Shown: positions 58,857 through 60,410 of the stretch, in pieces
How positions within the stretch are numbered: the stretch's first letter is position 1
Layout: each line of letters starts with the position of its first letter
Assembly: GCA_948468985.1 (NCBI GenBank)
Contig: CAOKKG010000003.1
Span: 1-64,000 of the forward strand
DNA from: an uncultured Eubacteriales bacterium
GTDB taxonomy: Bacteria > Bacillota > Clostridia > Christensenellales > Christensenellaceae
DNA length: 64,000 nt
Reading direction: 5' to 3'
Notes under the pieces: model-generated
Databases searched by the model: none
What the model was told of the DNA's origin: nothing
Seen by the model: the letters and a program-made list of their open reading frames with translations, nothing else
Position numbers and translations under genes: made by a program

Positions 58857-59513
58857 ATGTCTATCCTGTTTCCTAACATCCCTTCCTGCGTGTACTGTAG
58901 TAGGGAGCTCCCGCGGGGCGAGGTCTGCCCGGCGTGCCGGCGGAAGCTCGCGCCGCTCGCCCTGTTCGGCCGGGCGGCCTATCCGTTTGCCTGCTGCGGC
59001 GCGTATCGCTATGGCGAGGCGATCCGGCGGCTCGTCTGGCGCTATAAGTTCGAAGGTGCCCGTTGGCTGTACGCCTACCTTGCGGACGAGATGCTGCACG
59101 CCCTTTTGGACGAGGCGTTCGACCTCGTATGCTTCGTGCCGCTGCATCCCCGCCGTCTGGCGTGGCGCGGGTTTAACCAGTCGCAATTGCTTGCGGAGCG
59201 CATCGCGGCAAGGCGGGGATGCCCGTGCATTCCGGCGCTCGTGCGCATCCGCAACACGCATGCACAGGCCAAGCTCCCGCACGACGAACGCGCGGCCAAT
59301 GTCGCGGGTGCGTTTGCCCTGCGGCCGGGTGCAGCGGAAGTCCTGTCCGGCCGGCGGGTGTTGTTGGTGGACGATGTGGTGACAACGGGCGCGACGATTG
59401 GCGGATGCCGCGAACAATTGCGCGCCGCCGGGGCAGAGGTGCTGTGCGCGGCCTTCACCGTGACGGCCGGGGGCGGGGATTCCCCGTTGCGTTTCGGCAA
59501 AAATTCGGTATAA
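58857..59513 (+). CDS. comFC: ComF-family phosphoribosyltransferase-like protein
   Basis: A 218-residue ComFC protein. An N-terminal four-cysteine zinc finger (CVYC...CPAC, residues 11-29) is followed by a phosphoribosyltransferase fold with VPLHPRRLAWRGFNQSQLLA near 95-114 and the PRPP loop VLLVDDVVTTGAT near 169-181. ComFC is needed for DNA uptake in competent Bacillus and may act in single-strand DNA handling; whether this organism is competent is unknown. The ATG at 58857 follows GAGGAGG. Its stop codon lies inside the -10 box of the noncoding RNA that follows. Confidence 0.93.
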   Translation: MSILFPNIPSCVYCSRELPRGEVCPACRRKLAPLALFGRAAYPFACCGAYRYGEAIRRLVWRYKFEGARWLYAYLADEMLHALLDEAFDLVCFVPLHPRRLAWRGFNQSQLLAERIAARRGCPCIPALVRIRNTHAQAKLPHDERAANVAGAFALRPGAAEVLSGRRVLLVDDVVTTGATIGGCREQLRAAGAEVLCAAFTVTAGGGDSPLRFGKNSV

Positions 59514-59514
59514 T
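59487..59514 (+). promoter_or_regulatory. Promoter of the raiA-motif RNA
   Basis: A perfect TATAAT at 59509-59514 has TTGCGT at 59487-59492, 16 bases upstream. The TAA stop of comFC (59511-59513) is contained in the -10 element. Transcription would begin near 59521. Confidence 0.8.
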
Positions 59515-59520
59515 AAAAAT

Positions 59521-59744
59521 AGAGACCTTTTTCCAAGTCTGTGGTTGCAAGTCGAGGCCAGACGCAGGCAAAGCGATCCACATAATCCGGGAAAATCCCG
59601 GGGAGCATGGTGCGTTTTAGATGTAAGTCCGTCCGGGCATGCCCGAGAGGAGCAGTAGTGGGGAGGCAGCGTGCCTTAGGAGCGAACCTTCCAGGCGGCG
59701 AGTGTGGGGGCAAAGACCAGGTCAGTTGGAGGGGGTCTTTTTTT
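59521..59744 (+). ncRNA. raiA-motif noncoding RNA
   Basis: About 224 nt between comFC and hpf/raiA, with its own promoter and its own terminator and no supported ORF. The sequence is rich in potential helices, for example TCCGGGAAAATCCCGG near 59587-59603 and CCGGGCATGCCCGAG near 59632. It ends in AAAGACC (59712-59718) pairing with GGTCTTT (59734-59740) followed by T7; AGAGACC at the 5' end could pair with the same GGTCTTT. Length, structure and the comFC-RNA-raiA order match the raiA motif, an abundant RNA of Firmicutes and Actinobacteria reported to affect sporulation and aggregation. I cannot run a covariance model; 6S RNA is the main alternative. Confidence 0.85.
59712..59744 (+). terminator. 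Terminator of the raiA-motif RNA
   Basis: AAAGACC and GGTCTTT close a hairpin that contains GTCAGTTGGAGG in its loop, followed by T7. It separates the RNA from the hpf gene. Confidence 0.85.
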
Positions 59745-59786
59745 GCGCCTTTTTTTGTGAATTTTTCGCGAAATCCGCCGCGCGGA

Positions 59787-59816
59787 CAAGGAATTTCTGC
59801 CTTCGCCGTGGAATAT
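59787..59816 (+). promoter_or_regulatory. Sigma-H-like promoter of hpf
   Basis: CAAGGAATT (59787-59795) and GTGGAATAT (59808-59816) are 12 bases apart. They match the Bacillus sigma-H pattern (R-N-AGGAWWW, 11-12 bases, R-NN-GAATWW) at 17 of 18 positions scored. Sigma-H drives entry into stationary phase and sporulation, and B. subtilis hpf (yvyD) is sigma-H controlled. Confidence 0.6.
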
Positions 59817-59870
59817 TTATATAAGATAGGCGGCAGGGTCCGCCAAGCAAGGCAAAAGGAGGACGAGAAT

Positions 59871-60410
59871 ATGTTGCTTCGCATCAACGGCAAAGGGATG
59901 TCGGTTTCCGCATATACGGAAAGGATCGCCCGCAAAAAGGCGCAGAAGCTGGAACGCTATTTCCGGGAGGATGCCGAGGTCACCCTGTTACTTTCCCGTG
60001 AAAAGGATCGGCATATCGCCGAAGTGACCGTCCCATTTTATGAAGGCCGGCTGCTGCGGGCAGAGGAAGTGGGCGACGACGCCTACTCTGCGATTGACGG
60101 CGCACTCCGCAAGCTGGAGCGGCAGATCCGTCGACATCGTACACGCCTCACAAAGGATTTGCACGACACGCTGGAGATGGACGAGAACCCCATCTATGAG
60201 GACGAACCGCTTCTGGACGAGGGCGAGCCCAAGCTCGTCAAGAGCAAGCACTTCGCCTTAAAGCCGATGTATCTTGAGGAGGCGGAATTGCAGATGGAGC
60301 TTTTGGGCCATTCCTTCTTTGTGTTCCTCTCGGCCGAGACAGGGATGGTGCAGGTACTCTACCGTCGCCGCGATGGGGACTATGGCCTTTTGGAACCGGA
60401 ATACGAATAA
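59871..60410 (+). CDS. hpf: Long-form ribosome hibernation promoting factor
   Basis: A 179-residue protein of the long HPF type (also called RaiA/YfiA family). Residues 1-100 form the ribosome-binding domain (LRINGKGMSVSAYTERIARKKAQKLERYF; ALRKLERQIRRHRTRL near 78-93). An acidic linker follows, and the C-terminal domain (KSKHFALKPMYLEEAELQMELLGHSFFVF, near 124-152) allows dimerisation of 70S ribosomes into 100S particles. It stores ribosomes in stationary phase. AAAGGAGG precedes the ATG. It follows the raiA-motif RNA and has a sigma-H-like promoter. Confidence 0.95.
   Translation: MLLRINGKGMSVSAYTERIARKKAQKLERYFREDAEVTLLLSREKDRHIAEVTVPFYEGRLLRAEEVGDDAYSAIDGALRKLERQIRRHRTRLTKDLHDTLEMDENPIYEDEPLLDEGEPKLVKSKHFALKPMYLEEAELQMELLGHSFFVFLSAETGMVQVLYRRRDGDYGLLEPEYE

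Follow-up and report, generated by a model that had tools for sequence, protein, structure and literature searches.

A complete raiA (ModT) RNA gene between comFC and hpf, and conservation of the RNA in hosts without detected sporulation or c-di-GMP genes

The region between comFC and hpf in the DNA analysed here (a stretch of 64,000 nucleotides from the genome of an uncultured Eubacteriales bacterium, hereafter the window) carries a raiA (ModT) noncoding RNA, a further example of a known RNA family, and of this identity we are as good as certain. The RNA has an intact conserved core, the pk-1 pseudoknot and the gene context known for the family, and raiA is conserved in hosts in which spore or c-di-GMP genes were not found. 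raiA is an abundant, intricately folded RNA, and here it stands as a complete gene between two ordinary bacterial genes. Judged from gene content across genomes, our comparison suggests that sporulation and c-di-GMP, the two best-studied raiA phenotypes, are disfavoured as the universal purpose of this RNA.

Results

In an Rfam covariance search the locus matched raiA (RF03072) over model positions 1-209 of 209, with a score of 185.6 bits (gathering threshold 101.3 bits) and an E value of 2.6e-49 (2.4e-47 when the whole 64-kb window was searched). raiA was the sole Rfam family matched within the 64 kb, and one raiA copy was found in the 1.47 Mb assembly, which is 92% complete. A sequence-only reading of this DNA had placed a raiA-motif RNA gene between comFC and hpf and had set raiA against 6S RNA; the covariance search and the protein-family matches of the neighbours bear out both the RNA and the claimed order, which in full is recD2, comFC, raiA RNA, hpf and secA. 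6S RNA (SsrS) belongs to the same size class as raiA-type RNAs and resembles them in abundance. An identity as 6S or another housekeeping RNA would fit the size of the RNA and its own promoter, but 6S covariance models gave no match up to E 10 within 59300-60000, and this identity was rejected as scarcely credible. Of the two flanking proteins, ComFC scored 87.7 bits against TIGR00201 comF, which is under the cut-off of that model, and its Pribosyltran match lay barely over the Pfam cut-off. The features of the locus are listed below, with the basis of each in brackets.

58857-59513, + strand: comFC, ComF-family phosphoribosyltransferase, 218 aa, stop TAA at 59511-59513 (VDDVVTTG motif and family models)
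59487-59492, + strand: weak -35 hexamer TTGCGT (sequence and comparison with related loci)
59509-59514, + strand: -10 box TATAAT, overlapping the comFC stop codon (sequence; the -10 recurs in relatives)
59521-59744, + strand: predicted raiA transcript, about 220 nt, start to T7 (positions of promoter and T run)
59521-59536, + strand: 5' strand of the outward-extended P1 helix (full-length fold; similar flank pairing in some relatives)
59528-59734, + strand: raiA RNA, full-length RF03072 match (covariance search)
59560-59566, + strand: pk-1 5' strand AGACGCA, P3 loop (pairs with 59611-59617; two-sided changes in 79 homologues)
59611-59617, + strand: pk-1 3' strand UGCGUUU, pk-loop (partner of 59560-59566)
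59723-59740, + strand: 3' strand of the extended P1 helix (alignment and full-length fold)
59738-59744, + strand: T7 run, predicted terminator tail (sequence; directly after P1)
59871-60410, + strand: hpf (the raiA protein gene), long-form ribosome hibernation factor, 179 aa (PF02482 and PF16321, TIGR00741)

A MAFFT alignment of 79 homologues has 80 positions with conservation of 95% or more, and at each of them the window carries the conserved nucleotide. The Rfam structure is 84.1% paired in this alignment, against 33-50% for slid partners, a control that somewhat favours the true register because the structure was taken from the Rfam match. Changes on both sides of pairs occur across the homologues in pk-1, in outer P1 and in the P6-P8 arm; the P4/P5 columns, whose mapping for the window was shifted (50% paired), were left out of the evidence. 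The pk-1 pseudoknot, as defined by cryo-EM (PMC11751092), has seven pairs in the window and joins the P3 loop to the pk-loop. A second pseudoknot, pk-2, and tertiary contacts have also been described from cryo-EM (PMC11751092), and the raiA RNA structure has been solved as a monomer (PMC12286853). The free energy of the whole RNA is not unusual for its composition (z -0.91), a value that is expected of a pseudoknotted RNA but is not supportive.

Outside the Rfam model, the full-length fold picks an extension of P1 in which GAGACC (59522-59527) pairs with GGUCUUU (59734-59740), so that the helix joins both ends of the RNA and leads straight into the U7 tract. On this fold, P1 may double as the terminator stem. 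The flank pairing of the window beyond the Rfam model is unexceptional for its composition (p 0.26), and the same design, in other sequence, occurs in some relatives of the family (for example, AAAATCTGCGGCA with TGCCGCAGATTTT in G152). P1 is longer by about 11-13 perfect pairs beyond the Rfam model in L032 (G152), L033 (G126) and L034 (G094), each with a different sequence.

Context was compared across 80 raiA loci of the order, 17 of which have comFC upstream. The -35 and -10 elements of the window are separated by 16 nt, and a strict sigma-70 scan missed this TTGCGT/TATAAT promoter; nearly all of the related loci have a -10 resembling TATAAT, and in most of them a TTG-type -35 lies about 17 nt away. 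The earlier reading had described a 224-nt gap holding a complete RNA gene with a TATAAT promoter and a hairpin with T7. The RNA unit does measure about 224 nt, whereas the gap between comFC and hpf is 357 nt (59514-59870); the TATAAT is perfect, but the -35 that accompanies it is weak; and T7 is present (a second T7 run lies at 59750-59756), but its stem can be drawn in two ways, as the outward-extended P1 or as a local hairpin. That the comFC stop lies inside the -10 box was correct. The further claim that the protein end and the RNA start are locked together found no support, since the overlap was seen at one of the 17 comFC-linked loci, the window itself, and in three congeners the comFC stop lies 25-44 nt upstream of the -10. 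A conserved lock between stop and promoter was rejected on these counts, and the overlap is incidental to the packing of a single genome. In the congeners L004 (G187) and L011 (G139), comFC was not found within 1.5 kb upstream of the RNA; there, a longer gene that resembles the end of recD2 stops just before the RNA, and no clear promoter was seen within 45 nt of it.

The core segment AAAGACC (59712-59718) could also pair with GGUCUUU at 59734-59740, replacing the P1 extension, a possible, weak pairing. This local hairpin has no advantage over shuffled sequences (z -0.11), and as a conserved terminator switch it was rejected as weak. The distance from the first T7 run to the start of hpf is 126 nt, and the genes downstream of the raiA RNA vary between families. 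For example, the stretch between the RNA and hpf in L081 (G406) contains a cold-shock-like ORF (GKVKWFNQKKGFGFIQ...), about 44 nt beyond the RNA, and in family f18 a PfkB-type sugar kinase-like ORF follows the RNA at L030 (G017), L042 (G067), L051 (G086) and L061 (G120); both were recognised by eye.

Among 248 genomes of the order, raiA was found in 80, SpoIVA in 207, GGDEF in 95 and Spo0A_C in 225. The association of raiA with SpoIVA is negative (51 genomes with both, 29 with raiA only, 156 with SpoIVA only and 12 with neither). That with GGDEF is positive (50 with both, 30 with raiA only, 45 with GGDEF only and 123 with neither), although these are uncorrected counts and may reflect genome size or descent. 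None of GGDEF, EAL and PilZ was found in 30 of the 80 raiA-positive genomes, the window's included, and SpoIVA and SpoIIIAE are both missing from 22, which belong to six families and include the single-contig G031, G054 and G126. The window's genome has Spo0A_C, SpoIVA and SpoIIIAE and therefore may form spores; Spo0A is uninformative alone because it is nearly universal in the order. All 80 conserved raiA positions are kept in G139 (window's genus, 97% complete) and in G031 (99% complete, one contig), in neither of which were SpoIVA, SpoIIIAE, GGDEF, EAL, PilZ or zf_Tbcl found; G139 is also without detected Spo0A_C. Assembly gaps are unlikely to explain the absences across 22-30 mostly near-complete genomes, although a single draft could have one.

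As raiA is intact, in the genomes checked, where c-di-GMP or spore genes are absent, neither would seem to be its core function, and sporulation was rejected as its conserved purpose on the negative association with SpoIVA and the 22 genomes without the two spore genes. The authors of the C. difficile work noted that many non-spore-formers bear raiA/ModT RNA (PMC11706538); the constraint from c-di-GMP is an addition of the present comparison. Genomes such as the window's and those of its relatives serve as natural experiments: where c-di-GMP signalling, spore genes and zf_Tbcl are missing, the RNA is intact.

The most recurrent neighbour of the RNA elsewhere is zf_Tbcl, a gene of about 92 codons that encodes two treble-clef zinc fingers (PF13451 zf_Tbcl and PF23477/TIGR04272). 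Outside the window's family, its start follows the raiA RNA by a median of 37-40 nt at 51 of 65 loci of the order; in other orders it does so at 14 of 24 above-threshold loci, some with the order RNA, zf_Tbcl, hpf. In the phylum set nine raiA matches fall below the threshold, and each of them has zf_Tbcl within 50 nt; elsewhere in the phylum zf_Tbcl adjoins raiA at 23 of 33 loci when above- and below-threshold matches are combined. A search for the raiA 3' core followed after 34-64 nt by a zf_Tbcl start, taken as one joint DNA pattern, recovered at least 120 stretches from the genome collection, against a roughly estimated chance expectation of about one, and 16 of 16 sampled stretches carry above-threshold raiA. 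Within the order, 69 genomes have both raiA and zf_Tbcl, 11 have raiA only, 39 have zf_Tbcl only and 129 have neither, giving an odds ratio of 21 that ignores shared descent. Mostly, no T-rich terminator separates RNA and gene at the approximately 65 zf_Tbcl-linked loci (for example L006, L009, L010, L013, L019 and others in L110-L189).

zf_Tbcl also occurs often where raiA does not (199 of 299 genomes in the phylum), and it was not detected in the window's genome, G139, G031 or eight other raiA-positive genomes of the order. Being frequent without raiA and not found in the window's genome, it would in certain lineages be a candidate for partner or target, and not an obligate one; an obligate complex of RNA and zf_Tbcl was rejected, as no zf_Tbcl was detected in the window's genome. 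Lying about 40 nt from the RNA in many genomes, it offers a concrete protein candidate. The link between raiA and zf_Tbcl was not found in the literature that we searched, which left out Weinberg 2017 and Soares 2024.

Discussion

Set beside RF03072 as known from ModT of Clostridioides difficile and the raiA RNA of Clostridium acetobutylicum, the RNA of the window is alike in its full-length match, conserved core, pk-1, P1 and P6-P8, and also in its setting, with comFC upstream, hpf (raiA) downstream, a sigma-A type promoter and a predicted terminator right after P1. It differs in the outward extension of P1 into the U tract, in the overlap of the -10 box with the comFC stop (this genome only), in a host without detectable c-di-GMP genes, and in that a second, longer isoform is not confidently predictable. 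For ModT, trans-complementation, abundance and a growth-phase phenotype have been shown (PMC11706538); trans action has been demonstrated in both C. acetobutylicum and C. difficile, and an abundant, stable, trans-acting transcript has been shown elsewhere (PMC11706538). It is very probable that raiA is a stand-alone, trans-acting RNA gene here as well. It would be transcribed from a putative sigma-A promoter of its own, where comFC ends, fold into a compact pseudoknotted particle closed by the extended P1 helix, end at the predicted U7 tract, and be released as a probably abundant product that acts in trans and does not serve as the leader of hpf.

What such a product acts upon was left unsettled by the earlier reading, in agreement with the literature (PMC11706538, PMC11751092); that reading was silent on the C. 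difficile work (ModT, c-di-GMP) and on the cryo-EM structures. We propose that the RNA may bind some core component that every host possesses, most plausibly a part of the machinery for translation or ribosome dormancy, and that this binding might set when growing cells pass into stationary phase; changes in spores, aggregation and c-di-GMP would then be lineage-specific consequences. This target and its timing role are a tentative suggestion, which may well prove wrong. A target more basic than either phenotype is argued by the 30 raiA-positive genomes without GGDEF, EAL and PilZ and the 22 without SpoIVA and SpoIIIAE, and the link to translation or the ribosome was drawn because of the neighbours (hpf, zf_Tbcl and the cold-shock-like gene in G406) and by elimination of spores and c-di-GMP. 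The ModT authors regard gene synteny as a poor guide to function (PMC11706538).

The alternatives differ chiefly in what the RNA would control. It could be a cis-regulatory, riboswitch-like leader of hpf, in which GGUCUUU toggles between the P1 extension and the local AAAGACC terminator hairpin, and such a reading draws on the Rfam type of the family (Cis-reg; riboswitch), on the two mutually exclusive pairings of 59734-59740 and on the many relatives in which the RNA lies 28-50 nt ahead of a gene. However, the local hairpin equals shuffles, T7 and a further 126 nt separate the RNA from hpf in the window, the downstream genes differ among families, and trans-complementation of raiA deletions succeeded in C. 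difficile and in C. acetobutylicum (PMC11706538), so that a leader function seems quite improbable. More improbable still is that the conserved task of the RNA is to control c-di-GMP levels and thereby sporulation and aggregation: this phenotype was shown in C. difficile (PMC11706538) and raiA tends to occur together with GGDEF in the order, but the limits on those counts, the negative association with SpoIVA and the 30 genomes, the window's among them, in which all three c-di-GMP families were undetected make it very hard to sustain.

OLE RNA, with its protein partners, is likewise a large structured bacterial RNA whose gene lies beside protein genes that may partner it (PMC11706538). raiA differs from it in the absence of any sequence or structure match, in being smaller and in having been solved as a monomer (PMC12286853). 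On another reading, raiA RNA and zf_Tbcl would be an old functional unit (comFC, raiA RNA, zf_Tbcl, hpf), in which the zf_Tbcl message begins with the RNA as its leader or yields it by cleavage, and the protein either binds the RNA or falls under its control; the protein half would have been lost in the window's lineage, and the RNA would have turned stand-alone. The regular spacing in this and other orders, the nine below-threshold matches, the joint-pattern stretches with their sampled raiA and the odds ratio all speak for such a unit. Against it stand the 11 raiA-positive genomes of the order without detected zf_Tbcl, whose RNA core is intact in those checked, the frequency of zf_Tbcl without raiA, and the fact that adjacency alone can be inherited, as the odds ratio takes no account of shared descent. 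We consider this unit rather unlikely, though less so than the leader; if it were true, the window's family would be a natural deletion of the protein half. A stand-alone, trans-acting raiA RNA is the reading that we prefer for the window.

A search for hidden raiA upstream of zf_Tbcl in raiA-negative genomes gave one faint trace in 20. This trace (L239:220-332, + strand, G058) scores 21 bits with an E value of 0.19, lies just before zf_Tbcl and is perhaps a decayed or mini copy. In some families there are mini-raiA RNAs of 113-120 nt, which score 42-59 bits, under the Rfam threshold of 101.3. Examples are found at L105, L106, L107 and L109 (1501-1613, - strand), and also in G396, G448, G545 and G423. 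They lie just before zf_Tbcl and drop most of the middle of the model and the far arm, while the P1/P3 core is kept; a mini-raiA of 113 nt thereby reveals which part of the fold is dispensable.
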